IMG/VR virus record: IMGVR_UViG_3300032282_003780 | Span: 1 to 23,509 of that record | Direction: 5' to 3' (one strand) | Source of the DNA: a virus | DNA length: 23,509 nt | Part shown: positions 4,514 to 22,360 of the stretch, in pieces | Layout: each line of letters begins with the position of its first letter | Numbering within the stretch: position 1 is the first letter of the stretch | The notes under the pieces: generated by a model | Seen by the model: the letters and a program-made list of their open reading frames with translations, nothing else | What the model was told of the DNA's origin: nothing | The model's database searches: none | Made by a program: the position numbers and the translations under genes

Positions 4514-4514
4514 A

Positions 4515-5405
4515 TTAACCATTTTTTAGTTTATTAGTTAACCAATCCCCAACTGAAATTGAAGGAGACCAACCTAACTTGTTTTTTAATTTTGAACAAT
4601 CACTTAAAGTTTCGTTAGGTTCTATTCTTTTACCAATATAAGTTATTTCAGAGTTAAAGTAATTAGCAATATCATTTACCGACATATTTTCACCAAAACC
4701 AACATTAAAAATGTCAAAATTTCCAGTATCGTTTAAACAGGATAAATAATTGGCAATAACAACATCTTTTACGTTAATAAAGTCTCTTCTTTGATTACCA
4801 TCATTTGTTATTGTTAAAGGTTTGGATTGTCTGTATTGTTCCATAAAAATAGATATAACTGATTTATAAGCACCCTCAGAAGTCATCCTTTCTCCAAAAA
4901 CATTAAAATATCTTAAACAAACCGCTTTTAAACCATACAATTCGGTAAACATTTTTATGTATTGTTCTGAACATAGCTTTTGCAAAGCGTAAGGAGATAA
5001 AGGATTTGGTTCAAACGATTCTTTAACCGGAAATTCTGTTGGGTTCCCATAAATTGCAGACGTTGATGAAAAAACTATTTTTTTTATGTTTGGGAATTTT
5101 CTTATTGAATTAAGTAATTTTATTGTCGCAACCAAGTTATGTTCAGAAGTAAACAAAGGTTGGTCAATTGATTGTTGAACATTTGGTACTGCCGCCATAT
5201 GTATAACATAATCAATATCAATTAATATACTGTCTATTTTTTGTTGATATAAATCTAAATTATAAAATTTGGCTTTTGGATTTAAATTTTCAATTTTACC
5301 TGTTGTTATATTATCAACTATTACAACGTTATGTCCGTGATTAATTAAAAAATCAACCATATTGGAACCTATAAACCCGGCACCTCCGGTTACTAAAAAT
5401 TTCAT
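4515..5405 (-). CDS. NAD-dependent sugar epimerase, GalE/WbpP-like
   Basis: Extended short-chain dehydrogenase/reductase of 296 aa, most like UDP-hexose 4-epimerases. Cofactor loop GGAGFIG (7-13); D31 in VIVDN would bind the adenosine ribose of NAD. The catalytic set is SSTSAIYG (113-120) and YALQK (Y139, K143). NVFGER (168-173) and the RRDFINVKDVV stretch later on are typical substrate-side motifs of GalE-type enzymes. It is at the short end of the family (about 300-340 aa usual). It would interconvert a UDP-hexose or UDP-HexNAc at C4, but other nucleotide-sugar epimerases/dehydratases share these motifs, so the substrate is open. Its ATG overlaps the stop of the GDP-fucose synthase gene (ATGA). 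It is the last sugar gene before PhoH. Confidence 0.85.
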   Translation of the reverse strand: MKFLVTGGAGFIGSNMVDFLINHGHNVVIVDNITTGKIENLNPKAKFYNLDLYQQKIDSILIDIDYVIHMAAVPNVQQSIDQPLFTSEHNLVATIKLLNSIRKFPNIKKIVFSSTSAIYGNPTEFPVKESFEPNPLSPYALQKLCSEQYIKMFTELYGLKAVCLRYFNVFGERMTSEGAYKSVISIFMEQYRQSKPLTITNDGNQRRDFINVKDVVIANYLSCLNDTGNFDIFNVGFGENMSVNDIANYFNSEITYIGKRIEPNETLSDCSKLKNKLGWSPSISVGDWLTNKLKNG

Positions 5406-6307
5406 TTTCTTAATGTTTTATAATTTTTTATGAAGTGTTCTATAGTTTCTTCTAAACCATCTTTCAAAGGAGTAAAATTATAGTCTCCAATAATAGATTT
5501 CAAATATTCATTACTTGAAGGTTTTCTAAATTGACCTTCTGGTTTAGTTCTATCGAAGACAATGTTTTTTTTAAATTTAAAAATATCGCATATGGTTGTT
5601 ATTAATTCCTCAATAGAGACTTCTTGATTAGTTGCGGAAATAATAATTGGTTTAGTGTCTTCATATTTATCAATTAAAATGTTTGTAATATCTGCAACAT
5701 CTTTCGAATAAATAAACTCCCTCATAGGTTTACCGGAACCCCAAACTTCGACATCTTCGTTTTTTAACATAGATAAATAAACTTTATGTATTAAAGCCGG
5801 TACAACATGCCCCTTTTCTAAATTGTAGTTGTCATTAAACCCATAAACATTTGCGGGAATTACTGAAAAGTATTTAGTACCATATTGTTGGTTATATGCT
5901 TGTATTTGCACATCGGCCATTCTTTTTGCGTGTGCGTATGCGTAATTTGTTTCATGTGGGGGACCTAAATGAATTTTATCCTCCGTTAATGGTAAGTCAA
6001 CTTTATCCGGAAAAACACACGTTGATGTAAAACAAACAAATTTTTTAACGTTGAATTCTTTTGCATAATGAATTGTTGATGTGTTCATTTTAATATTGTC
6101 GTAAAAAAAATCTGCTAGAGCGTCCATATTAGCCTTTACACCACCAACTTTTGCCGCAGTATGAACTACAACATCCGGTTTAATTTCTTGATACATTTTT
6201 ATAACATCATCCTCTTTCAATAAATTATATTGAGAACTGTTAATTTTTATTCCATCTCTGAATTCAGAACCAATTAGTCCTGAACCACCTGTTATTAATT
6301 TTATCAT
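5402..6307 (-). CDS. fcl: GDP-L-fucose synthase (GDP-4-keto-6-deoxy-D-mannose 3,5-epimerase-4-reductase)
   Basis: Bifunctional NADP-dependent epimerase-reductase (301 aa) that turns GDP-4-keto-6-deoxy-D-mannose into GDP-L-fucose. Family landmarks are all present: cofactor loop GGSGLIG (7-13), AAKVGGVKAN (51-60), the active-site STC (95-97) in a 'TSTCVFP' strand, Y124-x3-K128, and NVYGFNDNYNLEKGHVVPALIHK (153-175) with H167. These correspond to Ser/Cys/Tyr/Lys/His residues described for the E. coli WcaG/Fcl enzyme. Length is close to the usual 310-320 aa. The gene starts one base after the GDP-mannose 4,6-dehydratase gene and overlaps the epimerase gene by four bases, giving a dehydratase-synthase pair in biosynthetic order. 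The product would feed the two GT11 fucosyltransferases encoded in the window. Confidence 0.93.
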   Translation of the reverse strand: MIKLITGGSGLIGSEFRDGIKINSSQYNLLKEDDVIKMYQEIKPDVVVHTAAKVGGVKANMDALADFFYDNIKMNTSTIHYAKEFNVKKFVCFTSTCVFPDKVDLPLTEDKIHLGPPHETNYAYAHAKRMADVQIQAYNQQYGTKYFSVIPANVYGFNDNYNLEKGHVVPALIHKVYLSMLKNEDVEVWGSGKPMREFIYSKDVADITNILIDKYEDTKPIIISATNQEVSIEELITTICDIFKFKKNIVFDRTKPEGQFRKPSSNEYLKSIIGDYNFTPLKDGLEETIEHFIKNYKTLRK

Positions 6308-6308
6308 A

Positions 6309-7322
6309 TTATCGTCTTAAATATTTTCTTCCTGATTTAACTTTATTTCTCCAGTAATTTAATAAGTCATCCATAGTTCGCTCAAAACTATACTCAGGTT
6401 CCCATCCTGTATGTTTCTTAAATTTGTTTGTATCCGGTATTTGTAATACAACATCAACAGGTCTTAATCTTTCAGGGTCAACAACAATTTCGATACTTTT
6501 TACCGTGGATTTACTAATTAAGTAATTTAACATTTCTTTTACGGAACAAGTGTATTGACCTCCTATGTTATAATATTCACCTGAAATAGGATTTATTGTT
6601 ACCAACATATAGTAAGCTTTAACGGCATCTCTAACGTCAGCATACGTCCTTAAAGACTCTATGTTACCAACATATATTTTGGGCTCCTGTAATCCTGACT
6701 CAATCATGGCAATTTGTTTTGCAAATGTAGATTCTGAAAAAACATCACCTCTTCTTGGTCCTGTATGGGTAAACATTCTTGTTGTCATAATAGTCATATT
6801 GTAAGCTTCCGCATAGTATCTACCAATTAAATCTGTTCCTACTTTTGAAATTGCATATGGTGACGCCGGATAAAAAATACAATCTTCACTAATTGGTATT
6901 TTATCTTCAGTTACTTTCCCAAAAACTTCACTTGAAGCACAAACATGAATTGTTGCATTTTTATATTCAGAGCGACGTAATGACTCTAATAAATTTGTTG
7001 TTCCAATTATGTTTGTTTGTAAGGTTTCAATAGGGGCGTCAAAACTTGTTTGAGGATAAGATTGTGCCGCCAAATGAAAAACATAATCCGGTTTAGATTT
7101 TTCAACACAGGCAATCAAAGAAGATAAATCATTTAAATCCCCATAAATAAGGTGTACTCTATTTTTATCATTTATTCTTTGTGTTAGATGTTCTAAATTT
7201 TCAAAATTATCATTCCATCTACAAAAACCATATATTTCCCAATCAGTATTTTGTAATAGGAAATCAACTAAGTGAGAACCTACCATTCCAGTAATTCCTG
7301 TTATTAATGCTCTTTTTTTCAT
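6309..7322 (-). CDS. gmd: GDP-mannose 4,6-dehydratase
   Basis: Extended SDR of 337 aa predicted to convert GDP-D-mannose to GDP-4-keto-6-deoxy-D-mannose in the cytoplasm. Seen: cofactor loop GITGMVG (9-15); R35 and neighbours in GFCRWNDNFENLEHL, the place where GMD enzymes bind NADP phosphate; GDLND (61-65); HLAAQSYPQTSF (83-94); SSEVFG (130-135), with E132 as the dehydratase glutamate; Y156-x3-K160; and THTGPRRGDVF (185-195). PERLRPVDV near the C-terminus is typical of the GMD/Rmd group. The related reductase Rmd shares several of these motifs but usually has Gly-Asp rather than Ser-Glu at the active site, so GMD is favoured. It lies one base upstream of GDP-fucose synthase, which supports the assignment, and 17 bases downstream of the GT17 gene. 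Confidence 0.9.
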   Translation of the reverse strand: MKKRALITGITGMVGSHLVDFLLQNTDWEIYGFCRWNDNFENLEHLTQRINDKNRVHLIYGDLNDLSSLIACVEKSKPDYVFHLAAQSYPQTSFDAPIETLQTNIIGTTNLLESLRRSEYKNATIHVCASSEVFGKVTEDKIPISEDCIFYPASPYAISKVGTDLIGRYYAEAYNMTIMTTRMFTHTGPRRGDVFSESTFAKQIAMIESGLQEPKIYVGNIESLRTYADVRDAVKAYYMLVTINPISGEYYNIGGQYTCSVKEMLNYLISKSTVKSIEIVVDPERLRPVDVVLQIPDTNKFKKHTGWEPEYSFERTMDDLLNYWRNKVKSGRKYLRR

Positions 7323-7339
7323 TTTTTAGTTAATTTTTA

Positions 7340-8194
7340 TTATTTTATCATATTTTTAAGTTTACTTACATTTTTTTGTACGTACTCAGGAAAACTTTCA
7401 TCAATTTCTACTAACGTTAATCTACTTCTAAAAAATGGGTCAATGTTATTATAAATGTTAGATTCAATACTTTGTAATACATGTGTACTTGCTAAATCCC
7501 TTGCGGAATAATTTAGTAACTTATTTATAATCATTTCTTTATTTCCTTGAAAACTAAAATGCCACCCTCCATTTGGTATTTTTATTGATAAATTTTCATC
7601 ACCTCTTAATTCATTCAATGATATGTTTTTGATATTTTTGTATTTTGTAATTTTTGTACCATACCAATCAGTTTGTTTTAATAGATTTAAATAATAATAG
7701 TAAGTAATTTGATTTAATGAATATCTATTATTTTCTAAATCTAATTCTGAAATATTTACTATTATTTTTGGATTTGGGATTTCATCAGCATCTGAAAAAA
7801 ATATAATATCATCATCTTGACAATTAATTAATGCTCTTCGTACAGATTCTTTTTGAAAAAAGTCTCTACCATAATCCGGTTGAGTTAATCTATTAAATCT
7901 ATTATTTTGTAATTTTATAAAATCATAAATTTTATTTAATTCCGAATCAGAAGTTGTTTGTAGATTTACAAAATCAGTTGGATTATCGGTAATTTTGAAA
8001 TTTATAATTTTATCTAAAAATTTTTTAAACCTTTCTTTATTTTCTTCAAAATAAAACGGTTTTATAACTCCTGAATGTGTTAAATCGGACTCAACAATAA
8101 CAAAATAATCAACATAATCGTATAATGTATTCAATCTTATTTCTAAGATGTCAAGTTCATTGTAGAAATTGAAACAATCATAAATTTTACTCAT
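7340..8194 (-). CDS. Glycosyltransferase family 17-like
   Basis: Protein of 284 aa resembling the GT17 family (beta-1,4-N-acetylglucosaminyltransferase type III relatives, common in phages and giant viruses). Diagnostic segments: YDCFNFYNELDILEIRLN (5-22), VDYFVIVESDLTHSG (28-42) with KPFYFEENKERF (45-56), RRALINCQDDDIIFFSDADEIP (119-140) whose DADE (135-138) is the metal-binding DxD, and GGWHFSF further on. There is no transmembrane helix, unlike the Golgi enzymes of eukaryotes. The sequence is very rich in Asn, Ile, Lys and Tyr, reflecting the strong AT bias here. It follows the GT11 gene with a two-base gap. The family is well supported; the transferred sugar in this phage is not known. 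Confidence 0.88.
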   Translation of the reverse strand: MSKIYDCFNFYNELDILEIRLNTLYDYVDYFVIVESDLTHSGVIKPFYFEENKERFKKFLDKIINFKITDNPTDFVNLQTTSDSELNKIYDFIKLQNNRFNRLTQPDYGRDFFQKESVRRALINCQDDDIIFFSDADEIPNPKIIVNISELDLENNRYSLNQITYYYYLNLLKQTDWYGTKITKYKNIKNISLNELRGDENLSIKIPNGGWHFSFQGNKEMIINKLLNYSARDLASTHVLQSIESNIYNNIDPFFRSRLTLVEIDESFPEYVQKNVSKLKNMIK

Positions 8195-8196
8195 TT

Positions 8197-9108
8197 TTAT
8201 ATATTTTTTGTTTTATAATAATTTTCAGCCTCATATACACATGTGTTATAATTTAGAACTTCACCGTTCCTGTCAACATAATGAAAATTTGTTGTGTAAC
8301 TTTCCCCAACACTCCAAAAACCATCACTAAAGTTATGTGAAGCCCAATATTTCGGAGCAAGTATTTTGTTTGCTTTGGTATTTAACCATGCGGCCCACCA
8401 ACCAAACGTTGAATTTGATAAAATAACCCATTTTGATTGATTTATTGTGTAAAAATCACACCCAATATCAAAATGATAACAAGGGATGTCAAATGGCATA
8501 TACATTTTTGCGTAATGTGGGTCGTCTGTAATTACAATAAATTTAATGTCTTGATTAATCGACTTAATGTGGTTAATAGAATCTCTCCAGTATTCTCGTC
8601 TACACAAAACATGTGGTATATTTCTATATTCACCACCTCTAAAATTAATTACACATAAATTGTCATCCACTATAATTCCATTTGAAGATAATATTTTATT
8701 ATATTCCTCAACAAATTCGGGTTTTATTTTAAACCAATTTTTCACATCCTGCTTATTATCCTCAAAATATTTTTCAGATTGGTAGATACCGCCAAATGCT
8801 CCATTATCACCAATTAAACGAGTATTATCATCAATGTCATAAATTCTATGGTCTAACTTTGTAACATTAATTATTTGTCCGTTATAATTATAATTTGTCC
8901 ATTTTTCGTGAAAATCAACAAATTGACCAACAACAGGTTTACCAAAATCAACATCCATAAAATACATTTGATTCATACCGTTATGATAATCATGTGTTGG
9001 TGAAGAATTAATACCCCATTCATATCCTAATTTTTCGGCAATAGTCCTACAAACGGCGTATTGCCACATGTGGTTACCCAAATTTCCTGTTAAGTTTGCA
9101 GTAATCAT
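8197..9108 (-). CDS. Alpha-1,2-fucosyltransferase-like protein (GT11), divergent
   Basis: GT11-like protein of 303 aa; the family transfers L-fucose from GDP-fucose. The N-terminus TGNLGNHMWQYAVCRTIAEKLG (7-28) matches the family's 'G-G-x-G-N-Q-M-F-Q-Y-A' start, GGIYQSEKYF (106-115) matches the 'G-Y-F-Q-S-E-K-Y-F' block, and SNSTFGWWAAWLN (231-243) the conserved C-terminal block. The donor-site motif H-x-R-R-G-D-Y is altered to NFRGGEY (155-161): one Arg (R157) is kept, while His, the second Arg and Asp are changed. It may therefore have a different donor or reduced activity. It overlaps the RmlD-like reductase gene by ATGA and is followed by the GT17 gene. A second, canonical GT11 protein is encoded at 17991-18755. 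Confidence 0.82.
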   Translation of the reverse strand: MITANLTGNLGNHMWQYAVCRTIAEKLGYEWGINSSPTHDYHNGMNQMYFMDVDFGKPVVGQFVDFHEKWTNYNYNGQIINVTKLDHRIYDIDDNTRLIGDNGAFGGIYQSEKYFEDNKQDVKNWFKIKPEFVEEYNKILSSNGIIVDDNLCVINFRGGEYRNIPHVLCRREYWRDSINHIKSINQDIKFIVITDDPHYAKMYMPFDIPCYHFDIGCDFYTINQSKWVILSNSTFGWWAAWLNTKANKILAPKYWASHNFSDGFWSVGESYTTNFHYVDRNGEVLNYNTCVYEAENYYKTKNI

Positions 9109-9905
9109 TTTAATTTAAAATTTTTCATTTCTTTTATTTGTAAAAATAACTCTTTTTTTATTGGATTTACAAATTTTGTGGATAAATTTCTAAAACATTT
9201 TTCATCAGTTTCTTTTGGAGTTACTAAAATATTTAAATCGTATATTTCATTAATGAAATTAACCAATTCATATTTAGAAACTGTTGTTGGGGAGAAAATG
9301 TGATTAACCCCTTTCCAAAAATTATTTGTTGAAACTATTATATCAATAAATTTTGATAATTCTAAACAAGTTATACCATTCCATAAATGATTTGTGTACC
9401 CAAAAATCTCTTTGTTTGATTGTGTTTTTACCCATTCAACTAACGACTTTTGATTTTTTAACTCTTCACCAATAATTGATGTTCTAATTGTTGTTATTTC
9501 ATCATTTTCGCCTAAAGATTTAGTTTTACCGTATTCGTCGTAACAATCGTGTTTGTCATCTTCAGTATAATTACCAATCAACCCATTGAATACGCAATCT
9601 GTTGTAATGTGAATAACTTCACAATTTGATATTTTTTTAAATTTGGCTAAATAGTTAGGGAATAAACTATTAACTATAATCATATCACATATATCGTATT
9701 CTCTTTGTTTAATAATTCCGGAAGCATTAATAATAACATCACCTTTTGAAACATTATTTTCTAAAAAATTAAATATTTCTTTTTCTGAGGTTTTTGTAAC
9801 ATCAATATTTTCTCTAGTCAAAGGAACTACATTGTATTTAACACTTAAAACTTTTGTAAGGTATGTTCCTAACATACCATTTGCCCCGAAAATTATAATT
9901 TTCAT
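9105..9905 (-). CDS. RmlD-like nucleotide-sugar 4-reductase
   Basis: Short-chain dehydrogenase/reductase of 266 aa from the dTDP-4-dehydrorhamnose reductase (RmlD) group. Seen: FGANGMLG (6-13) cofactor loop, NASGI (60-64), VNSLFPNYLA (78-87), HITTDCVFNG (99-108) with T102/D103, and Y125-x3-K129 (YGKTK). These match the RmlD pattern 'STDYVFDG...YGKTKLxGE'. It overlaps the PseB/CapE-like dehydratase gene upstream by ATGA. The likely job is therefore to reduce the 4-keto sugar made by that enzyme, as in the WbvB-WbvR or CapE-CapF pairs for 2-acetamido-2,6-dideoxy-L-hexoses. This pairing is inferred from gene order. A stand-alone dTDP-rhamnose role is less likely because RmlA, RmlB and RmlC are not in the window. 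Confidence 0.8.
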   Translation of the reverse strand: MKIIIFGANGMLGTYLTKVLSVKYNVVPLTRENIDVTKTSEKEIFNFLENNVSKGDVIINASGIIKQREYDICDMIIVNSLFPNYLAKFKKISNCEVIHITTDCVFNGLIGNYTEDDKHDCYDEYGKTKSLGENDEITTIRTSIIGEELKNQKSLVEWVKTQSNKEIFGYTNHLWNGITCLELSKFIDIIVSTNNFWKGVNHIFSPTTVSKYELVNFINEIYDLNILVTPKETDEKCFRNLSTKFVNPIKKELFLQIKEMKNFKLK

Positions 9906-10828
9906 TTGAAAAAGTTTTTACTATTTAAATAATTGTATAATTCTTGTTTAGTTAAACAATTATCTTTTGAAGAATATTCGTTATTACTAAAATAAACTTT
10001 ATTTATAATTTTATTAGGGTATAGTAAGTATATGTTATCTTTCTCAATAAAATCCATTCTTCTTATTTCTTCAGATGATGACATTATTTCATGAATTTTT
10101 TCTCCGGTTCTTTCATTTGTTATTTTATATTTTAAACCAAAATTTTCTTTATAAATGTCAAATAAATCTTTTATTAAAAAAGACTTGGTAACAGGTATTA
10201 CATTACAATTTTTGTAATCCATAGACTTTAATATTAAATCAATTGCATCATCAACATCTAATAAAAATCTTGTCATATCAGGATTATATAACTCTATTTC
10301 TTTATCATTTTTTATAAAATTCCATATTAATGGGATAATTGAACCGGTTGAATTTGTTACATTACCGTAAATTGCTGTAGTTAAATTACATTCCGAGTTA
10401 TTAGCTATGAATGATTCACCAGCAACGTATTTCATTGCCCCGTATATAGTTGTTGCAGCTCTACTTTTGTCGGATGAAATAAAACAACCTGATTTAAATT
10501 GATTTGTTTCTGCAGCAATTCTTGAATTAATTGCCCCGTCAACTATGATAGATTTAGCCTCTTCAAAATTATCGTTACAAGCTTCAATTTGTTTGAGTGA
10601 GGCGGCAAAAATACCAACAGTATGACCCTGACTTTTTCTTGTAAGTAAATCTCTATTTCTCACATCTCCAATTACAAAATTTACTTTTGGGTAGTATTTT
10701 TTCAAATAATAATGTTTTGATTCATCTCTTGAATAAACAGTTATTTCGTTATTGGGATATAATCTCTCAATTAAATTTTTACCCAAAAACCCAGCACCAC
10801 CTGTTATAAATATTTTTTCATTCTCCAC
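9902..10828 (-). CDS. UDP-GlcNAc 4,6-dehydratase-like enzyme (PseB/CapE/WbvB group)
   Basis: Polysaccharide-synthesis SDR of 308 aa. Seen: GGAGFLG (10-16) cofactor loop; GDVRNRDLL (54-62); AASLKQIEACNDNFEEA (75-91), matching the family's 'A-A-A-L-K-Q-V-P-x-C-E-x-N-P' block; SSDKSR (118-123) with D120 and K121; YGAMK (129-133); and DMTRFLLDVDDAIDLIL (184-200). The family inverts C5 while dehydrating UDP-GlcNAc to a UDP-2-acetamido-2,6-dideoxy-L-hexos-4-ulose. Size is near that of CapE/PseB (330-345 aa) and far below membrane CapD/PglF, which fits a soluble enzyme. The start is GTG, overlapping the TAG stop of the methyltransferase (TAGTG); no ATG lies nearby upstream in frame. It overlaps the reductase gene by ATGA. 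The exact stereochemistry of the product is not predictable here. Confidence 0.85.
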   Translation of the reverse strand: MENEKIFITGGAGFLGKNLIERLYPNNEITVYSRDESKHYYLKKYYPKVNFVIGDVRNRDLLTRKSQGHTVGIFAASLKQIEACNDNFEEAKSIIVDGAINSRIAAETNQFKSGCFISSDKSRAATTIYGAMKYVAGESFIANNSECNLTTAIYGNVTNSTGSIIPLIWNFIKNDKEIELYNPDMTRFLLDVDDAIDLILKSMDYKNCNVIPVTKSFLIKDLFDIYKENFGLKYKITNERTGEKIHEIMSSSEEIRRMDFIEKDNIYLLYPNKIINKVYFSNNEYSSKDNCLTKQELYNYLNSKNFFK

Positions 10829-11385
10829 TATGGTAAATAAATTAATTGTTTAGTTCTATTAATTTTTTTAATTATTGTTACACCTGGGTTAATTGGTAGT
10901 GTTACAATTTCAAATTCGTCTATAAAATTTTGCTTAATGTATAGTGCTGTTTTATAGACATCATTACATGCGTGTTTATCAAAAAAAACAGGGTCATAAG
11001 GATATGTATCGTGCATAAAAATAAAACCATCTTCAATAACTCTATCTTTAACGTTCATAAAATCTTTTAAAGATTGTTCATGTGAATGGTCTGCATCTAT
11101 AAAAACAACATCAAACATAATATTTTTATCTAATTTATCAAAATATTCGTCTGTTGACATAGTGTAGTATTCCATATTAGAATTTAGTGGAAAGGCTGGC
11201 GGTGCAATATCAACCGCAATTGCTTTTTCACAATGTTGAGCAACAACTTTAAAATTAGAACCGTCTCTAACACCAAGCTCTAAATAACACTCCGGTTTTA
11301 TCCAATAAAGTAGTGTATCAAAAAAATCAACATGATTGAAGGTTTCTGCGGGGGGAGGAATGTTTCGTAAATGAATTTGTTTCAT
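10828..11385 (-). CDS. SAM-dependent methyltransferase (Methyltransf_24-like)
   Basis: Class I methyltransferase of 185 aa. Motif I is LELGVRDGS (35-43), the acidic ribose-binding residue follows at IAVDIA (56-61; D59), and FDVVFIDADHSHEQSLKDF (91-109) plus EDGFIFMHDTYP (118-129) form the hallmark block of the Methyltransf_24 group. That group includes sugar O-methyltransferases such as those acting on macrolide sugars, and it may bind a metal through the Asp/His residues of the DADHSHE and MHDTYP segments. In a glycosylation cassette the likely substrate is a sugar hydroxyl, which would cap or modify the glycan; this is inference. The stop is TAG, shared with the GTG start of the next gene. 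The leader consists of an A/T-rich repeat (11387-11408). Confidence 0.85.
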   Translation of the reverse strand: MKQIHLRNIPPPAETFNHVDFFDTLLYWIKPECYLELGVRDGSNFKVVAQHCEKAIAVDIAPPAFPLNSNMEYYTMSTDEYFDKLDKNIMFDVVFIDADHSHEQSLKDFMNVKDRVIEDGFIFMHDTYPYDPVFFDKHACNDVYKTALYIKQNFIDEFEIVTLPINPGVTIIKKINRTKQLIYLP

Positions 11386-11386
11386 A

Positions 11387-11408
11387 TTTTTTATTTATTT
11401 TTTATTTA
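11387..11408. repeat. Two-copy 11-bp A/T tandem repeat at gene junction
   Basis: The unit TTTTTTATTTA occurs twice back to back (11387-11397 and 11398-11408) and a shorter T5 run follows. On the coding strand this reads as AAATAAATAA-type sequence directly before the methyltransferase ATG, and the stop codon of the upstream glycosyltransferase lies inside the second unit. It serves as the A/T-rich start context seen throughout the window; copy-number slippage here would also move the start context. There is no sign that it is more than local simple sequence. Confidence 0.6.
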
Positions 11409-12199: not shown

Positions 12200-12201
12200 T
12201 T

Positions 12202-13952: not shown

Positions 13953-13955
13953 TAA

Positions 13956-14642: not shown

Positions 14643-14651
14643 TATTTTTTT

Positions 14652-15311: not shown

Positions 15312-16002
15312 ATCTTATGTTTAAAACTTTATGTTCTTTTAATTTTTCTTCTTCAGTTATTGTATCACTTAGTCTATTCCCCCACGTTCTGTTTACGACG
15401 GTTATTATATCAAAAAGTTGTGGTGGTCCGTATTTAATGAATAATTTTTGATAATAATCACAATCCATTAACCAATTTAACTCCTCATCAAAAAAAATTA
15501 AATCTTCATTTTTAATCGTCAAAACACTTGGACATCCTAAAGTGTTATGTCCAGCCCAAACTCGATTATTCCACTCCGGCATATATAAACGATAAAAATT
15601 TATACCATCATTACTGTGATAAAATTTGGTGAAAAACCATTTTATGGAATTTTGATTATTTTTTATAAAATTGTATTGGTTTTCTAACGAAAATTCATTA
15701 AATAAAAAATCGTCTTGAAATAAAATTTTAATCCACTCACCAGAACATCTTTTTAGTGATTCGTTAATGTTAGGAGATATAATTCCTCTACCTCTATCGT
15801 TGAAAGAATGTTTTATGTTAAGTTTATCTGACCATTTATCACAAATATCTTTAATAGTATTATCAATACTATGGTCTGAAATCACGATTTCAAAATCTTT
15901 AAATGATTGGTTTAATATTTTTTCGAAACTAAATTCTAAAAATTCCGTTCCTTTTCCATTATATCCGTATGTGGGTATTGCTATTGAAAAAAATGGATTC
16001 AT
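15295..16002 (-). CDS. Family 2 glycosyltransferase
   Basis: GT2 enzyme of 235 aa. Classical layout: FFSIAIPTYGYNG (4-16) first strand; FEIVISDHSIDNT (37-49), where D43 binds the nucleotide; NINESLKRCSGEWIKILFQDDF (78-99) with the QDDF metal site (96-99); and LNWLMDCDYYQKLF (about 175-188), the usual 'ED-x-D' type catalytic segment, here MDCDY. It is soluble, with no hydrophobic helix. The start overlaps the stop of the RmlD-like gene by ATGA, placing it immediately after the 3-dehydratase/reductase pair. This suggests, as inference only, that it could transfer the sugar made by that pair. Confidence 0.88.
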   Translation of the reverse strand: MNPFFSIAIPTYGYNGKGTEFLEFSFEKILNQSFKDFEIVISDHSIDNTIKDICDKWSDKLNIKHSFNDRGRGIISPNINESLKRCSGEWIKILFQDDFLFNEFSLENQYNFIKNNQNSIKWFFTKFYHSNDGINFYRLYMPEWNNRVWAGHNTLGCPSVLTIKNEDLIFFDEELNWLMDCDYYQKLFIKYGPPQLFDIITVVNRTWGNRLSDTITEEEKLKEHKVLNIRYASFA

Positions 16003-16676
16003 ATTATTGATTTTAGTTTTTCTAAATTCATCGTTGTATCTGAAGGAACTTCAGATGGTTTAAATATAGGTGTAACGTTCCTTGTTTTAAAGGCTAAATC
16101 ATATATTGATTTAGATTCAGTTCCTACATTATATACGCCATTACAATTAGAATTAATCAATTTAATAACTAATGAGGATATAACATCAACATAATCACAA
16201 TTTGTTTTGATATCCACCCACGCCTTTTCATACGGAAAAGGGTTTGGTTTATGTGATAATCGACAAATTAGATAATTTTTAGATTTTAATTGTACATGTG
16301 AATCACCTAAAAGTTTAGTATATCCATACCACGTTGGTAAATGACAAGGAACATCAGCTTCGGACGAATTTTCAATAGAATATGTGTATATGTAATCAGT
16401 TGAAATGTGTACTAATTTTATATTATTATCATTACAGTAATTTACCAAATTATCAACAAAAACGTAATTAACATTCCAATGAGATTCTCTATCCTTTGAA
16501 TAGGTATCGGTATTTGCAATACAATTTACAATTGTGTCATATTCTAAAAAAAATGAACTATATGAATTAATATCATTGATATCAAAGTTTATTTTTTTTC
16601 TTGAAATAAAATCCCAACCTGTTTGTCTAACAATCTCGGAACCCAATAAACCATCACCTAAAACTAAAACCTTCAT
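15999..16676 (-). CDS. RmlD-like short-chain reductase
   Basis: Compact SDR of 225 aa in the RmlD group. Seen: LGDGLLGSEI (6-15) cofactor loop, NCIANTDT (51-58), VNYVFVDNLVNY (69-80), HISTDYIYTYS (90-100) with S92/T93/D94, and Y117-x3-K121 (YGYTK). It is shorter than typical RmlD (about 290 aa), mostly in the C-terminal substrate-binding part. It overlaps the RfbH-type 3-dehydratase gene upstream by ATGA, so the two are probably coupled. The natural hypothesis is that it reduces the 4-keto group of a 3-deoxygenated sugar nucleotide, as the SDR enzymes for abequose, paratose or colitose do. The reduced C-terminus could reflect a different nucleotide substrate. Confidence is high for the fold and moderate for the pathway role. 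Confidence 0.78.
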   Translation of the reverse strand: MKVLVLGDGLLGSEIVRQTGWDFISRKKINFDINDINSYSSFFLEYDTIVNCIANTDTYSKDRESHWNVNYVFVDNLVNYCNDNNIKLVHISTDYIYTYSIENSSEADVPCHLPTWYGYTKLLGDSHVQLKSKNYLICRLSHKPNPFPYEKAWVDIKTNCDYVDVISSLVIKLINSNCNGVYNVGTESKSIYDLAFKTRNVTPIFKPSEVPSDTTMNLEKLKSII

Positions 16677-17959
16677 TTGAATTTTTTTACCACTTCCTCG
16701 ACATAATCAAATACGTTTTCGGTATAGTGAGGTGCCGCTCCAATAAAGAAAACATTATCTAAAACTTTGTTTGAATTTGGATAATTTTTATAATCATCTA
16801 AAAAACTATACCCCGGATGAAGTAAAATATTACCTGCAAAATAGTTTCTTGTTTGAATTTTGTTAGATTCCAAATAATCAACTAATCTGTGTTTAAGTCC
16901 CTCTTCTTCACAAATAAATGGAGTTCCAAACCAACAAGTATCTGATTTATCTAAAGATTTAACACCTCTAATACCTTTAATATTTTCAGTAAAAATCTTT
17001 TCTAATCTATCTTTAGAAACACGTCTTCTCTCTTCAATTTCATCTAATTTTTCTAATTGAACTAAACCTATAGCACCTTGTAAATCTAAAGGTTTTAAGT
17101 TGTAACCCATACTTGAAAAAATATATTTATGGTCTATTGGTTTGTCGTATGATTCTAACCATCTATCAAATCTGTTACCGCAAGTACCACAAGAAAGAAG
17201 ATTTTCTGACCCAACACAATAACAATCTCTACCCCACCAAGCCATACTGACAATCAACTTTTTTAATTCTTCATCATTAGTACAAACCATACCACCTTCA
17301 CCGGTTGAAATATGGTGAGCGGGATAGAATGAGTTTGAAAATGCGACATAATATTCATTTAAGTACTTACCGTCCCATTTTGAACCTAAACTATCGCAGT
17401 TATCCCCAATTAATTTAAGGTCATATTTTTTACAAATTTCGATTAAAACATCCATATCAGGAGGATTACCCAATACCGGTGAAACAAAAATTCCTTTAGT
17501 TTTTGTACTTATTTTTTCTTCAATTTTTGTTAAATCAAAATTTAATGTTTCCATTTCAATATCAACAAAAACCGGTTTTAGTCTATTTTGATATAAAACC
17601 GAAATTGTGGTTGCAAAACCAACTGGTGAGACAATAATTTCATCATCATCATTCCAACCAAATCTTTTCTTTAGGGCCGCAATAAGAGCTAAATTAGCAG
17701 AAGACCCTGAATTTACCATTGTTGAATATTTAACGTTAAATCTTTTGCTAAATTTTTTTTCAAAATTATAAACGTTTTCACCTGAACTAATCCATTTTCC
17801 ATTTAATAATGCATTAATTGCTGCCTCTACTTCCATATTATCCCAATATGGTCCTGAGTAATAGATAGGTGTTTTACCTGGCTCAAAGTTTTTTGAGTTG
17901 TAAATGTATGGTGCAACGTGGTTGCCGACCAACTTTTGTATATCAGTATTTAAAATCAT
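16673..17959 (-). CDS. rfbH: RfbH-like [2Fe-2S]/PLP nucleotide-sugar 3-dehydratase (DegT fold)
   Basis: DegT/DnrJ/EryC1/StrS-fold protein of 428 aa. In aminotransferases of this fold the PLP lysine sits in 'SF-x-x-x-K-x-x-x-x-GEGG'. Here it reads SFYPAHHISTGEGG (210-223), with H215 at the lysine position, as in RfbH (E1, CDP-4-keto-6-deoxyglucose 3-dehydratase) and ColD. E1 holds a [2Fe-2S] cluster through a C-x57-C-x-C-x7-C pattern. Here C188 and C246 are spaced exactly that way, C248 follows, and C260 precedes GNRF as in E1, with four extra residues in the last loop (C257 is an alternative ligand). Length agrees with RfbH (about 437). The reaction removes the C3 hydroxyl of a 4-keto-6-deoxy sugar nucleotide and needs a reductase partner (E3), which is not encoded in the window. 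It overlaps the SDR reductase gene by ATGA. Confidence 0.88.
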   Translation of the reverse strand: MILNTDIQKLVGNHVAPYIYNSKNFEPGKTPIYYSGPYWDNMEVEAAINALLNGKWISSGENVYNFEKKFSKRFNVKYSTMVNSGSSANLALIAALKKRFGWNDDDEIIVSPVGFATTISVLYQNRLKPVFVDIEMETLNFDLTKIEEKISTKTKGIFVSPVLGNPPDMDVLIEICKKYDLKLIGDNCDSLGSKWDGKYLNEYYVAFSNSFYPAHHISTGEGGMVCTNDEELKKLIVSMAWWGRDCYCVGSENLLSCGTCGNRFDRWLESYDKPIDHKYIFSSMGYNLKPLDLQGAIGLVQLEKLDEIEERRRVSKDRLEKIFTENIKGIRGVKSLDKSDTCWFGTPFICEEEGLKHRLVDYLESNKIQTRNYFAGNILLHPGYSFLDDYKNYPNSNKVLDNVFFIGAAPHYTENVFDYVEEVVKKFK

Positions 17960-17990
17960 ATTAAAAATATAGGTTAGTTTTTTTTCAAAA

Positions 17991-18755
17991 TCAAATTTTT
18001 ATCCAACTTTCCGGAAGTACATCATGTGTATCTTTGTGTCCTATCGGACCGAACCATTTTTTAGGTCCTATAACAATTTTATTTGGGTTTGAATTTAAAT
18101 ATCCTCCCCACCAACTGAAAGTGCTGTTTGATATAATGTTATTATGACAGTTTACCATTAATGATAAATCTTCTAATTCGGTGGTAAATGGTGAATACAA
18201 AATGTTATCACCTTTAAAATTATTTTTAACCCATTCCATATCATCAGATAACAATATAAATTTAGTATTAGGTATTTTACTCATGGCCTCGAGGTAATAT
18301 TCAACATTACAAACCGAATGAAAATTTATAAATTGAGGTTTAAGATAGTCACCTCTTCTGAAATGAACGGAAGTGTATGTGAAACTTTTATCCAAACTAT
18401 TTAAGTATTCATCAATATTTGATAAAACGAAAAGTTTTTTTATGTCATCGATGTAGTTTGAAAAATATTTTTCACTTTGAAAACTTCCGGTCAGAATTAA
18501 ATCCGAAGAATATGGTATTTTTGTAAATGAATGTTTAGGTTCAGTATAACCATATTTAAATCTATAATTTTTTACTTCCGGTATATTTTGGAAAATATTA
18601 TTTCTATAATGATTTGATGTTTTACCCTGTTGTGGTGTGTAACAGTCATCAAAATCAAAACCAAAAGTATCGTTATTTTCTTTTGCAAGCGCGTACGCAA
18701 CAGCTATTTGAAACATTTGGTTTCCTAATCCACCTTGTAGTTTAGTTGATATCAT
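17991..18755 (-). CDS. Alpha-1,2-fucosyltransferase (GT11)
   Basis: Canonical GT11 protein of 254 aa, predicted to transfer L-fucose from GDP-fucose in alpha-1,2 linkage. Seen: LQGGLGNQMFQIAVAYALAK (6-25), GSFQSEKYF (90-98), the full donor-site HFRRGDY (131-137), a KFILLSDD strand, and SNSTFSWWGGYLN towards the C-terminus. It is soluble and slightly shorter than bacterial homologues (about 280-300 aa). It ends with TGA 31 bases before the dehydratase gene, the longest gap in the window, and its start overlaps the GT2 gene by ATGA. Together with the GDP-fucose pathway at 5402-7322 it makes a coherent fucosylation module. It is much closer to the family consensus than the paralogue at 8197-9108. 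Confidence 0.92.
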   Translation of the reverse strand: MISTKLQGGLGNQMFQIAVAYALAKENNDTFGFDFDDCYTPQQGKTSNHYRNNIFQNIPEVKNYRFKYGYTEPKHSFTKIPYSSDLILTGSFQSEKYFSNYIDDIKKLFVLSNIDEYLNSLDKSFTYTSVHFRRGDYLKPQFINFHSVCNVEYYLEAMSKIPNTKFILLSDDMEWVKNNFKGDNILYSPFTTELEDLSLMVNCHNNIISNSTFSWWGGYLNSNPNKIVIGPKKWFGPIGHKDTHDVLPESWIKI

Positions 18756-19477
18756 TTTTTTATTAATCTTGTGTATGGTTTTTTATTTCTAATTCTTTCT
18801 GCATGATTATTAACCATTGTCATATCAACTTTGTGTTCATTAATTGGATTTTCGGCGTTATAAACATAGTTAACATCTTTCATAAAACGATAGTGTTGAG
18901 GTCCGGACATTTCTAACATTGGGAACATAAAACACAGGTCCCCACTCCATTGCCAATAGTTACCATCTTCATCTCTCAAATCTTCTTCTTTAATATTTCT
19001 CCAAAGAAAGGCTCTCCAAGTTCTAATATGAGATGCGGTAAATCTTGAATTTCTTAAATTGTCGAAATCTGTTTGAGGACTTGAGAACCCTGGCTGACCA
19101 TTTGAATATTTAAACGACCCATTAGCAATCCAAACATTTTTATCTTTGTATAAGTTATGAATACGTTCAAAAACTTTAGTATCGGGTAGCCAATCATCAC
19201 CATCAACTTCTATAATAACCTCGTCATCACTTATTTTTGAGTTATTTCTGATAGTTCTATCAAAATTACCTGCTTGGTATAATTTTTTATCATATTCGTC
19301 AACAAGAATAAATCTCGGGTCATTTTTAATCAACTCTTTGATAATTTTTACAGAATTATCTGTTGACATATCATGAGTTATGTAACAGGTAAAATCTTTA
19401 TGTGTTTGTGTCATTATTGATAATATGCTTTTCGCAACATATTGTTCTGCGTTGTAAAAACCGGTAACGATAACCAT
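18752..19477 (-). CDS. Family 2 glycosyltransferase (DGDDWL type)
   Basis: GT2 enzyme of 241 aa. The first strand VIVTGFYNAEQYVAKSILSIMTQ (2-24) and DMSTDNS (36-42) form the nucleotide site, and VIIEVDGDDWLPD (87-99) contains the metal-binding DGDD (92-95). The C-terminal half carries TWRAFLWRN and NYWQWSGDLCFMFPMLEMSG, a Trp-rich block of a kind I associate with phage-borne GT2 proteins, where the SGD-containing segment probably supplies the catalytic acid. There is no membrane segment. It overlaps the GT11 gene downstream by ATGA and follows the next GT gene with a 22-base A/T-rich gap. Substrate not predictable. Confidence 0.88.
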   Translation of the reverse strand: MVIVTGFYNAEQYVAKSILSIMTQTHKDFTCYITHDMSTDNSVKIIKELIKNDPRFILVDEYDKKLYQAGNFDRTIRNNSKISDDEVIIEVDGDDWLPDTKVFERIHNLYKDKNVWIANGSFKYSNGQPGFSSPQTDFDNLRNSRFTASHIRTWRAFLWRNIKEEDLRDEDGNYWQWSGDLCFMFPMLEMSGPQHYRFMKDVNYVYNAENPINEHKVDMTMVNNHAERIRNKKPYTRLIKK

Positions 19478-19499
19478 TTAATTTTATTTTTTGTGTTTA

Positions 19500-20231
19500 T
19501 TATATAATTTCAATATTTTGTTTTATTAAATCTTCCATATAATCATAGGTTTCCTGAACAACTTTATAATGTTCCCCTAATTTATATTGTTTGTTAAATT
19601 GTGATAATCTTTTTAATCTATCATCGTATAATTTTTTAACGTAGTCTTTACCTAAAAATTTATAGTGTAATAATTTTAATTCCGCTTCTTCACCTCTAAC
19701 ACAATCTTCACAAAAACTTTGATGTGCTCCCATACCGAAAGAAACTTCTTTTTCAGGATTAAACACAATATTTTTACACATAGGTTGATATGTTGAAGGT
19801 GAACCCACTTTTAAAATTTCCGTAATTAATCTACCGTCATATGTCGGAAATTTATCTGATACAATATTTCTTCCATCTATTTTTGGTATGTCAATACCTT
19901 TTTCTTTATATTCTCTCAATTTTTCAATTAAATTAGGGTGATATAATAATTCGTCACAGTCAGACACAATAACCCAATCCACACCTTGATTTCTACTATT
20001 TAATTTATACCCCATATTCTTCATTTGTGAGTTAAGTCCATCGTGAAACTCATTATTACTACTCCATTTTATAACTTTTACTTTAGGATATTTCGCGTAA
20101 ATTTTGTCTGACCCATCAGTTGAGTTATTGTCGTAAACAAATATTTTTTCACAGATACTACTATGATAATCTAATACGAATGGAAGTATTTTTTCTTCAT
20201 TCCATGCTAAAATATGTGAATGTATTTTCAT
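19500..20231 (-). CDS. Glycosyltransferase, Glyco_tranf_2_4-like
   Basis: GT-A enzyme of 243 aa. It opens KIHSHILAWNEEKILPFVLDYHS (2-24) and IFVYDNNSTDGS (30-41), the standard signature of the PF13704-type group, and has the metal site WVIVSDCDELLY (86-97) with DCDE at 91-94. The C-terminal block KLLHYKFLGKDYVKKLYDDR is the family's 'H-Y-K-x-L' region. Four cysteine/histidine residues near 179-190 (HQSFCEDC) could hold a small metal site, but the spacing is not diagnostic. It begins by ATGA overlap with the three-domain glycosyltransferase gene, so the two products are probably made in step. A relative with the same architecture lies at 11402-12199. Confidence 0.87.
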   Translation of the reverse strand: MKIHSHILAWNEEKILPFVLDYHSSICEKIFVYDNNSTDGSDKIYAKYPKVKVIKWSSNNEFHDGLNSQMKNMGYKLNSRNQGVDWVIVSDCDELLYHPNLIEKLREYKEKGIDIPKIDGRNIVSDKFPTYDGRLITEILKVGSPSTYQPMCKNIVFNPEKEVSFGMGAHQSFCEDCVRGEEAELKLLHYKFLGKDYVKKLYDDRLKRLSQFNKQYKLGEHYKVVQETYDYMEDLIKQNIEII

Positions 20232-22360
20232 AATTCTAATAATTTAATCCATTTATCTAAAATTTCGTCATGCGTCAATTTTATATTTTTGTGTGATGTT
20301 GATGATGTACCAAAAAATTTAGTACCAGTTAATTCACATTCATCTTTTACAAGTGATGCAACCTCACTTAATGAAGAAAGATATACCCTACCAATCATAT
20401 TGTACATGACTTGTTTATCAGAATAAAAACCTTTTACTTCAACTTTATCTGATAATAAAGGTTTTACAAATTTTTCATAATATTCTCCGAATGGTTCTCC
20501 AAATAAATAAACTTTTTCACAACCATCATTCAAGGCTCTTTCAATTGAAATGTGTGTTTGCTTATTATAGTCAAAAGACCCGATAATACCCGCAATTTTA
20601 TCTAAATCAGGTTTATTTTTATAATCTAATTTTTGTGTCAAATTAGGTATAATTGACCACTTACCATTATATTCTTTATGATACTCTCTATGTTCCGGAT
20701 TTAAAAAAACAACTTCATCCCAATATTGTTTTATAAGACCAACTTTAAATAAATCTTTTTCATGACAAGATAGAATTACTTTTTTAACTTTTGGTCTTTG
20801 TGGAAAATTTAAAAAATGAGTTATTAAAATATCATCATCTTCAAATCTACAATTCATCAATAAATCGGAATCACACTTATCTAAATGCCATTTATGTGGA
20901 CCGTAAAGAGTTGTCTCAATACCTTTTTCATTTAAAAAATTGACTAAATTGACAAACGCAAAGGTTGAACCTCCTTTATTTGAATACCCTGTTAAAACTT
21001 TAACTTTATTCGTTTTTTTAATTTCTTTACAAACTAAAGAACCATCAACAAAATTTTTAAATTTTTTGTTTTTAAGACCTATAGTAAATTCAATATCTTC
21101 TGTACCACTTAAATTGTTTTCGTTAAAAGAGTTATTTTTAAGAAATAAATCTTTTCTAAACATTATCATACTAGAAATATTACCATCAACTTCATCTAAT
21201 GTTGTTGTAAAATTAAAAAAATTATCTTTGTTTTTTATATATGGTTGATTTTCTTTTGATAAAATTACACCGTTATACATTACAAGATTATCTGAATAAT
21301 GTATTCTACACCCTATTGTCCCAACTGATGACATAGTTTTGAAATGTTTTAACATACCATGTATAACATCATTAAGTACTATAATATTTTCTCTACCTAA
21401 AAATATAAATTCATATTGTAAGTCTAAATTCTTAATAACATCATTGTATACTTCATTGATATATTTTTTCTGAGATATAATCAGATTGAAATTATTTGAA
21501 GGTTCTATAATACCGGAACCATAATTTACTACAAAAATATCATAAAAATTTTTATCACAGTTATCTAAATAAGATTCTATGATTTGATTTAATTTAGTAT
21601 AGTTATTTTTTACAGGAATTATTATTGCAACTTTACCAATATTTTTTATTGGTTTTACTTTATGTGTTTCATAAAACACATCGTTAGGATTTAATTTTAA
21701 GGGTAAATGTGAAATATATTTTTTAACAAACTCATTTTTACTAATCCAAAATTCATCATTTGGCTGACCAATAGATTCGTGAGTAATTTCAAAAGAAGAA
21801 GTTACACCTAATTTAATACCGTCTAAATAATTTGGTACTGTAAATCCGTGGTCGTAAAAATGAAATTTACCTAAATTTTCATCAAAAAAATGTTTAATTT
21901 TTGTCTTGTTGAAAGACAAGAATAACCCATCTAATGTAACAACAGGGATTAAAAATGGGAGTTTTGGTGAATATTTATTAATCCATTTTTTTTGGTTTTC
22001 AGGGTGGTGATACACCTGACCAACCATTGTTTGCTGCATATTCTCCCAATAAACACCACTTTCAGGGAAATAACAAGAACCGGCTTTTCCAATTATACCA
22101 TAATCAGGATTAAGCTCAAAATCGTTAATTAGTTTTTTTCCCCATCCTGATTCGAGTTTAATATCATTATGACAGCACACAATAATATCATACTTGGATT
22201 CTAAAATACCTTTATTATAAATCTGTGGTAATGAAAATTGGTTATTATTTTGATACTCCAATATTTGAACATCTTTTAATCCAACAGAATTTAAAAGATG
22301 CTTTTTGAAGTTGTCGTTATAATTTTTATCCTTATGTGTGGAGTATACTATTGTAATCAT
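20228..22360 (-). CDS. Three-domain glycosyltransferase (GT-A, GT-A, GT-B)
   Basis: The largest gene here, 710 aa, with three glycosyltransferase-like domains in series. Domain 1 (about 1-235) starts MITIVYSTHKDKN and carries CCHNDIKLESGWGK (62-75) with the HND acidic site and VVTLDGLFLSF (140-150), like the Glyco_tranf_2_5 group. Domain 2 (about 241-450) starts GKVAIIIPVKNNYTKL (242-257) as GT2, but the expected DxD reads FLGRENIIV (320-328), while GTEDIEF (419-425) is kept. Domain 3 (about 453-710) starts KVLTGYSNKGGSTFAFVNLVNFL and looks like a short GT-B protein, with SEVASLVKDECELTGTKFFGT (665-685) as the GT4 donor loop. It could add two or three sugars in succession. It lies two bases after the dUTPase gene, making it the first gene of the cassette. 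Confidence 0.85.
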   Translation of the reverse strand: MITIVYSTHKDKNYNDNFKKHLLNSVGLKDVQILEYQNNNQFSLPQIYNKGILESKYDIIVCCHNDIKLESGWGKKLINDFELNPDYGIIGKAGSCYFPESGVYWENMQQTMVGQVYHHPENQKKWINKYSPKLPFLIPVVTLDGLFLSFNKTKIKHFFDENLGKFHFYDHGFTVPNYLDGIKLGVTSSFEITHESIGQPNDEFWISKNEFVKKYISHLPLKLNPNDVFYETHKVKPIKNIGKVAIIIPVKNNYTKLNQIIESYLDNCDKNFYDIFVVNYGSGIIEPSNNFNLIISQKKYINEVYNDVIKNLDLQYEFIFLGRENIIVLNDVIHGMLKHFKTMSSVGTIGCRIHYSDNLVMYNGVILSKENQPYIKNKDNFFNFTTTLDEVDGNISSMIMFRKDLFLKNNSFNENNLSGTEDIEFTIGLKNKKFKNFVDGSLVCKEIKKTNKVKVLTGYSNKGGSTFAFVNLVNFLNEKGIETTLYGPHKWHLDKCDSDLLMNCRFEDDDILITHFLNFPQRPKVKKVILSCHEKDLFKVGLIKQYWDEVVFLNPEHREYHKEYNGKWSIIPNLTQKLDYKNKPDLDKIAGIIGSFDYNKQTHISIERALNDGCEKVYLFGEPFGEYYEKFVKPLLSDKVEVKGFYSDKQVMYNMIGRVYLSSLSEVASLVKDECELTGTKFFGTSSTSHKNIKLTHDEILDKWIKLLEL

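Follow-up and report, generated by a model that had tools for sequence, protein, structure and literature searches.

An exchangeable sugar-gene cassette between dUTPase and PhoH as a candidate virion-glycosylation locus of a T4-type phage

Where would a phage that carries a whole set of sugar genes assemble its glycan, and on what acceptor? The question is raised by a viral DNA stretch of 23,509 nucleotides (IMG/VR record IMGVR_UViG_3300032282_003780, hereafter the window), for which a first-pass annotation had proposed that the glycan is built in the cytoplasm, with a virion protein, DNA or a host-supplied carrier as acceptor. These three are still the right list of options. We give slightly better than an even chance to the reading that a T4-type jumbo phage glycosylates its virions with this locus, combining a conserved core with exchangeable decoration.

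All 28 genes of the window lie on the minus strand, with intergenic gaps of -17 to +31 nt; promoter and terminator counts are at the level of shuffled sequence. At the upstream end, g28 (22971..23507) encodes a 3'-5' exonuclease (Pfam DNA_pol_B_exo2, PHROG 25228) that is truncated by the contig end and precedes dUTPase in the relatives. The slot is bordered upstream by dUTPase (g27; 22363..22971) and downstream by PhoH (g06; 3770..4522; PF02562, PHROG 170), and all three flank identities are supported by Pfam and PHROG. Beyond PhoH follow two conserved backbone proteins, g05 (3108..3773), possibly HAD/5'-nucleotidase-like given a weak NT5C match (E=0.08), and g04 (2848..3108), assigned by synteny; then two glycosyltransferases (GTs), the GT-B enzyme g03 (GT1; 1776..2843) and the GT2-family enzyme g02 (GT2; 970..1776; PF00535); and finally g01 (230..970), a probable late sigma-like factor with weak matches (Sigma70_r2, E=0.05; a relative's match to a PHROG late sigma, E=0.015). 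Comparison of backbone genes beyond g01 with PHROGs yielded a capsid protein as the sole structural annotation, and no near-identical phage record was found for the window.

Between the two borders lie 20 consecutive same-strand genes, and the count, order and split originally reported for them (12 GT or GT-like proteins, seven nucleotide-sugar enzymes and one methyltransferase) proved correct, with the classes mostly backed by Pfam: all seven nucleotide-sugar enzymes, the methyltransferase g14 (10828..11385; PF13578), eight GTs above cut-off and two DUF families. The first island gene, g26 (20228..22360), encodes a 710-aa GT with a GT2_5 domain (PF13712) and a further region. It is joined by the GT2 enzymes g24 (18752..19477) and g20 (15295..16002; both PF00535), the GT2-like g25 (19500..20231) and g15 (11402..12205; both PF13704), the fucosyltransferase-type GT11 enzymes g23 (17991..18755) and g11 (8197..9108; both PF01531) and the GT17 enzyme g10 (7340..8194; PF04724). 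The DUF proteins are g19 (14652..15311; DUF5672, PF18922), which is GT-like, and g18 (13956..14642; DUF3431, PF11913), putatively so. No Pfam match was obtained for g17 (13008..13952) or g16 (12202..13011), which are probable GT-A enzymes: both carry GT-A-like acidic motifs, HSDMFF in g17 and LDDD in g16, the latter (DDD) being invariant across four homologues. The best structural matches of the g17 AF2 model in VIA-align were mostly GT-A enzymes (Z about 10); the model has a mean pLDDT of 52.7 and low confidence outside its better predicted N-terminal part, and thus lends the GT-A assignment only weak support.

The nucleotide-sugar enzymes point to 6-deoxy- and 3,6-dideoxysugars. Annotated as DegT, g22 (16673..17959) is better described as a PMP-dependent sugar 3-dehydratase of the RfbH/E1 type, which belongs to the 3,6-dideoxysugar pathway. 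It scores 367 bits against NCBIfam RfbH, under the cut-off of 423, and matches PDB 3bcx/3bb8 with E=2e-77. Its SFYPAHH motif aligns to His220 of E1, so that His replaces the PLP lysine as in RfbH/ColD sugar 3-dehydratases, and C188, C246, C248 and C260 align to E1 C193, C251, C253 and C261, which we take to be the iron-sulphur cysteines of the E1 subtype. Additionally, the cassette encodes two RmlD-like reductases, g21 (15999..16676) and g12 (9105..9905; both PF04321), a PseB/FlaA1-like UDP-GlcNAc 4,6-dehydratase, g13 (9902..10828; PF02719; NCBIfam PseB 150 bits, below cut-off; PDB 4tqg, 2gn4), and a GalE-like epimerase, g07 (4515..5405; PF01370; galE 175 bits, cut-off 262). GDP-fucose is probably among the cassette products, given the Gmd-like NDP-sugar 4,6-dehydratase g09 (6309..7322; PF16363; NCBIfam gmd 193 bits, cut-off 415) and the Fcl-like GDP-fucose synthase g08 (5402..6307; NCBIfam GDPFucSynFcl 230 bits, cut-off 500). 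A fucosylated product, as first suggested, is likely on these grounds, though unproven because both matches fall below the curated cut-offs.

We then asked whether the island has the membrane parts of a surface-polysaccharide locus. None of its 20 proteins has a predicted transmembrane segment, as the first-pass annotation had noticed; the same prediction gave 5-9 segments for each of five control proteins from E. coli (Wzx, Wzy, WcaJ). Likewise, none of 203 island ORFs from 25 relatives exceeded one marginal membrane segment. Family searches covered 31 related contigs of up to 304 kb, the window's own genome being incomplete. With positive controls detected, they found no Wzx flippase (PF13440), no Wzy polymerase (PF04932, Wzy_C) and no initiating transferase of the WecA/WbaP type (PF00953 and PF02397). 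The window contains no polytopic protein, and the three largest related contigs (261-304 kb) encode no protein with at least five predicted helices, the one scan here that bears on ABC-type O-antigen export. The original remark that export machinery is missing thus extends to the relatives. The island shares GTs and nucleotide-sugar enzymes with Wzx/Wzy-type O-antigen or capsule loci and lacks their flippase, polymerase and initiating transferase; nor does it resemble a seroconversion gtr cluster of temperate phages (membrane flippase GtrA, GtrB, polytopic Gtr), since it has no membrane proteins. This suggests that the sugar chain is assembled inside the cell.

Cells, however, also routinely use soluble GTs in their lipid-linked pathways, so a host carrier could serve. 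Phage GTs and sugars might then supply a lipid carrier, flippase and polymerase that belong to the host and alter its LPS or capsule while the infection proceeds, perhaps to exclude superinfecting phages or to keep progeny from re-adsorbing to debris. Such remodelling would fit a gene content like that of O-antigen loci stripped of their membrane parts, and comparable cyanophage clusters have been termed LPS genes (PMC3037559). We nevertheless regard it as unlikely: besides the missing carrier-pathway families in the 31 contigs, two GTs are fixed in the phage backbone, and a cassette that relied on a host carrier would be confined to certain hosts, yet the same cassettes turn up in different phage lineages, as described below.

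The order exonuclease-dUTPase-[island]-PhoH-g05-g04-GT1-GT2-sigma-like gene is common to dozens of independent viral contigs. GT1 and GT2 are kept even where the slot is empty (contigs L044/L052, which are identical, L046 and L080). The two further GTs at 970-2843 had been listed alongside the island; their GT identity holds, and counting them as island genes is rejected, as they belong to a conserved backbone block that persists without it. The slot itself is hypervariable, ranging from 0 to about 20 kb and absent in some relatives, and a g26-like GT was present in 34 of 34 filled islands measured. Against the close relative L002, BLASTN homology breaks at window position 5413, just beyond the 5' end of g07. 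In the distant phage L173, PhoH is only 36% identical to that of the window, yet 13 of 13 island genes are collinear at 38-74% identity, g24 being 74% identical; the g19 homologue in L017/L128 is 83% identical. Cassettes therefore move horizontally between phage lineages, and the island is a swappable module, a feature beyond the first-pass view. As for bacterial donors, a single genome-contig scan with g22 identified none, because its one good relative comes from a contig that is labelled as part of a Woesearchaeota MAG but shares 99% identity with viral contigs.

These data also bear on two trivial explanations. The hypothesis that the assembly wrongly joined phage to bacterial DNA in this contig, for which we found no evidence, is refuted by the recurrence of frame and cassette in independent viral contigs, such as G007 (L128/L129), where eight island genes in common with the window, in the same order, stand between dUTPase and PhoH; GC content is also even along the window. 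We consider a chimera practically negligible, and the case survives this objection. Functionless filler DNA for headful packaging would agree with the variable slot length and with relatives that lack an island. Yet the genes are intact, operon-packed and collinear across large distances, and dN/dS of island genes is about 0.03-0.18 (the misframed g22 pair L156-L157 left out), purifying selection that makes filler highly improbable. Together, the retained order of 13 genes at 36% PhoH identity, the purifying selection and the fixed GTs favour a real, selected pathway.

How might such a pathway work on a virion? The soluble GT1 and GT2, encoded downstream of PhoH, and a g26-type GT would build a core glycan on a virion protein in the host cytoplasm. 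The cassette between dUTPase and PhoH would make 6-deoxy- and 3,6-dideoxysugars, and probably GDP-fucose, from host precursors, and these would be added to the core as decoration of a single glycan. Swapping cassettes by recombination would then alter the coat sugar, much as O-antigen locus swaps do in bacteria. In support of this reading we also count the retention of GT1/GT2 at empty slots, the g26-like gene in every filled island measured, the chlorovirus precedent and the resemblance of g03 to AmGGT. Specifically, g03 has a profile match to 8xsg (AmGGT) with E=9e-15, and its AF2 model (pLDDT 86.7) adopts a GT-B fold with Z 29.1 against 8xsg. Agt homologues of AmGGT extend peptide-linked glucose. 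By this analogy g03 was considered as a protein-linked glucosyltransferase, and membership in the AmGGT/Agt group was rejected because one residue of the donor-site pair differs: E231 is retained (window E251), and the E223 position is Ser. Judging from this alignment, the chemistry of GT1 may differ from that of AmGGT, which counts against this reading. Among annotated phages searched, g26 and g03 had no match and g02 weak matches only.

Alternatively, the GTs might build oligosaccharides on modified phage DNA bases as a defence against restriction. DNA glucosylation is the best known use of phage GTs, and it was the first suggestion made for the GTs of moraphages (PMC12619734). A thymidylate-synthase-family protein (PF00303) occurs in 8 of 31 related contigs, the G023 copy being divergent, which keeps DNA modification among the candidates. 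Against this, the window has no base-modifying gene, the G003 protein carries the canonical thymidylate synthase motif, and the 270-kb contig G028 has g26, GT1 and GT2 but no protein of this family. To our knowledge, twelve diverse GTs with dideoxysugar enzymes exceed any known DNA-modifying system. A Tet/JBP search (PF12851) was run without a positive control and is hence uninformative. Overall, DNA hypermodification appears quite improbable, more so than host-surface remodelling.

The phages in question are large freshwater phages with T4-type capsids and are probably close to the moraphages, which are jumbo phages of 200-307 kb, mostly from freshwater (PMC12619734). The moraphage core comprises dUTPase, PhoH, a sigma factor, ClpA, T4-type structural genes and four unexplained putative GTs (PMC12619734). 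In the window lineage we found dUTPase, PhoH, a T4-type capsid, ClpA, several core GTs and a large genome, with weak matches only for the sigma factor. Among the 31 contigs, of which many are fragmentary, two had Lys-tRNA ligase (PF00152), as judged by a Pfam model that is not equivalent to the VOG present in 24 moraphage genomes (PMC12619734). Both groups are large aquatic phages with variable islands, and the likeness is one of gene content; the dUTPase-PhoH slot, its cassettes and their exchange are not described in the moraphage study (PMC12619734).

An island of this kind had been called unusual for a phage, yet this phage is not alone in having one: it is a variant of phage sugar clusters already known, and moraphages have core GTs (PMC12619734). 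The T4-type cyanophages P-SSM2, S-SSM7 and S-SM2 carry LPS gene clusters at variable sites, one of them, in P-SSM2, near phoH (PMC3037559). Hosts and backbone differ and the location is only partly alike; these clusters were once proposed as packaging filler, and whether phage 'LPS genes' are functional or stuffer DNA was left open (PMC3037559).

A functional parallel lies in chloroviruses, where the capsid glycan of PBCV-1 is proven and glycosylation is autonomous and independent of organelles (PMC4691112, PMC7826918). Virus-encoded GTs, a multidomain core GT, Gmd with an epimerase/reductase for GDP-fucose and, on the reading proposed here, a conserved core with variable decoration are common to both (PMC4691112, PMC7826918), as are nucleotide-sugar enzymes without membrane carrier steps. 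PBCV-1 is, however, a eukaryotic virus with a proven capsid glycan, whereas that of the window phage is a proposal. Tentatively, at somewhat less than an even chance, the locus could be a jumbo-phage 'serotype' locus, a counterpart of chlorovirus glycosylation in which fixed GTs build a core on virion proteins and the slot swaps whole decoration cassettes. Among phages, mycobacteriophages are cited as bearing glycans on subunits of both the capsid and the tail tube (Freeman 2023, as cited in PMC12619734). Few GTs are involved there. We know of no dedicated nucleotide-sugar cassette in that system.

If the product does reside on virions, the phage would wear a coat that resembles an antigen and is altered whenever cassettes are exchanged, with effects on adsorption, defence recognition and phage ecology. 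This can be put to the test in a cultivated phage with a comparable island. Flavobacterium phage vB_FspM_immuto_2-6A (NC_055915) has a gp23-type capsid protein with about 40% identity across the half that aligns, and an 11-kb island (49172-59988) with GTs, aminotransferases, an epimerase and a methyltransferase. It differs in its 160-kb genome, in an island away from PhoH and in encoding 7-deazaguanine DNA modification, a non-sugar change to be expected given its dpdA genes. As in the window, the 12 island genes scanned gave no predicted membrane helix.

All 28 genes of the window, which spans the whole of one IMG/VR contig (23,509 bp), lie on the minus strand almost without gaps, and 20 of them (4515-22360) are flanked by dUTPase (22363-22971) and PhoH (3770-4522). 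Pfam and NCBIfam recognise seven nucleotide-sugar enzymes in this island (GalE-like, Fcl-like, Gmd-like, two RmlD-like, PseB-like and an RfbH-type dehydratase), and Pfam one methyltransferase. The other 12 products are glycosyltransferases (GTs) or GT-like: eight score above Pfam cut-offs, two are DUFs, and two have no family, namely g16, with an invariant DDD motif, and g17, with an HSDMFF motif and a low-confidence GT-A-like predicted model. By families and motifs, the first-pass annotation had thus counted all three classes correctly.

Along its length the dehydratase, g22, aligns with E1/RfbH, a dehydratase of 3,6-dideoxysugar synthesis; both the His found in place of the PLP lysine and four cysteine positions of E1, which we take to have an iron-sulphur role, are retained. 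Given also the two GT11 proteins and the enzymes resembling Gmd and Fcl, a glycan containing fucose and a dideoxysugar is plausible. Since the NCBIfam equivalog scores of the island enzymes all fall below curated cut-offs, the exact sugars are tentative. No nucleotidyltransferase was seen in the window, and the host would supply the sugar precursors.

We collected related contigs of up to 304 kb by PhoH, dUTPase and GT scans of IMG/VR. Their gene order is fixed: exonuclease, dUTPase, the island, PhoH, g05, g04, two GTs (GT1, 1776-2843; GT2, 970-1776) and g01. Among the loci of the first two scans, the window's own included, PhoH is present in 90 and the complete PhoH-to-g01 block in 81. The two GTs at 970-2843, formerly counted alongside the island, are therefore backbone genes and part of the fixed frame. 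The last gene of the block, g01 (230-970), encodes a conserved backbone protein, the lineage's probable late sigma factor, with weak matches to sigma-70 region 2 and late sigma. A gp23-type capsid is encoded by 27 of 31 related contigs; among the closest annotated capsids are those of a 484-kb uncultured phage, a Microcystis phage and Flavobacterium phage immuto.

Within this frame the slot varies widely. It has zero length in five loci (L044, L046, L052, L055 and L080, with L044 and L052 identical), spans 1.9 to 9.7 kb in the remaining 34 loci with both borders fetched, near-duplicates among them, and reaches ~20 kb in the related contig G003. A GT like g26 occurs in all 34 filled islands, and the main Pfam families among 94 proteins of nine islands are GT, epimerase, dehydratase, methyltransferase, hexapeptide and aminotransferase.

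Judged from gene order and identity, the island is a moving cassette. The close relative L002 (PhoH 99%) shares 88% DNA identity with the window as far as position 5413, slightly beyond the 5' end of g07, after which no match follows; in place of the window's Fcl and Gmd it has genes for a cupin and a PfkB-type sugar kinase, the latter perhaps heptose-related (L002:366-1521). The distant phage L173 (PhoH 36% in a global alignment; GT1 42%) keeps the same order for 13 of the island genes, at identities of 38-74%. Collinearity holds for 11 of 11 island genes in L157 and 11 of 13 in L174, and none of 100,000 permutations matched that of these three loci. Single genes have, by their identities, conflicting histories: window g10 is 69% identical to L173 versus 44-48% to its backbone kin L030 and L017, and g11 of L030 is 85% identical to L173 versus 59% to the window. 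The islands of L156 and L157 likewise read as a mosaic, with g11 near-identical (dS 0) and g24 at dS 0.97. Values of dN/dS of 0.03-0.18, rough where dS exceeds 1, indicate purifying selection on the island genes.

None of the 20 island proteins has a transmembrane segment by a Kyte-Doolittle scan that called 5-9 in each of the E. coli controls Wzx, Wzy and WcaJ, a result that bears out the first-pass claim of an island free of membrane proteins. The exonuclease g28 received a single segment call, which is probably spurious. In the islands of 25 relatives, the 203 ORFs gave at most one segment each, a marginal one in six of them. The proposed check for a flippase or polymerase beyond the window was run on the relatives: Wzx, Wzy_C, WbaP-type and WecA families were absent from all 31 related contigs, of uncertified completeness, with positive controls detected. 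Three related contigs of 261, 270 and 304 kb, likewise uncertified as complete, contain no ORF with at least five predicted helices. Against this background, remodelling of the host surface appears a rather unlikely use of the sugars.

We propose instead that soluble GTs would glycosylate a cytoplasmic acceptor with special sugars made by the phage, which fits the soluble GTs, the phage-made sugars, the lack of a recognised export path and the GTs fixed in the backbone. Virion proteins would be the likeliest acceptor, because they are cytoplasmic during assembly and because chloroviruses offer a precedent: these viruses encode fucose synthesis and multidomain core GTs, and assembly proceeds independently of organelles (PMC4691112, PMC7826918). 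The predicted structure of GT1 is of good confidence and shows a GT-B fold, with AmGGT as the nearest match (Z 29.1; profile E=9e-15); the Agt homologues of AmGGT add to glucose that is attached to peptides. One donor-site residue differs between GT1 and AmGGT, so that an Agt-like activity on peptide-linked glucose is a lead only. Modification of DNA as the purpose of the slot we regard as improbable. The 304-kb relative G023 encodes a divergent thymidylate-synthase-family protein of 277 aa (G023:C1:31482-32312), possibly a nucleotide hydroxymethylase, with IQRSNDYLVAGYINKIQY replacing the usual LGLPFNIASY motif.

Phage-borne glycan clusters have precedents. Cyanophage P-SSM2 has LPS clusters, one of them near phoH, whose function was left open, and the cultivated phage immuto has an 11-kb glycan island, of which the 12 scanned genes show no predicted membrane helix. 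Moraphages resemble the phages studied here in size, dUTPase, PhoH, ClpA and several core GTs, whereas their Lys-tRNA ligase marker finds a poor match in the window's relatives; their variable islands were noted and deferred to future study (PMC12619734). What our analysis adds to these precedents is that the slot is fixed, that its content is exchanged between lineages with the gene order conserved, that it is under selection, and that long relatives lack recognised export genes. From the likeness to moraphages, rather than from the window itself, we infer a freshwater habitat. Full-length Hsp70 (DnaK) genes, reported for some moraphages, occur in two related contigs (G012:C1:182315-184096 and G014:C1:152787-154565).

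Among annotated phage records, the protein closest to g22 is an RfbH-type dehydratase of a 642-kb uncultured huge phage (LR756502, 445123-446385; 66% identity). The g22-g21-g20-g19-g11-g10 cassette is also present on BPGB01000006.1 (L175), filed as a Woesearchaeota archaeon MAG, which is >99% identical to the viral contigs L167 and L172 across 8.6-12 kb and belongs either to a misbinned virus or to one that infects archaea.
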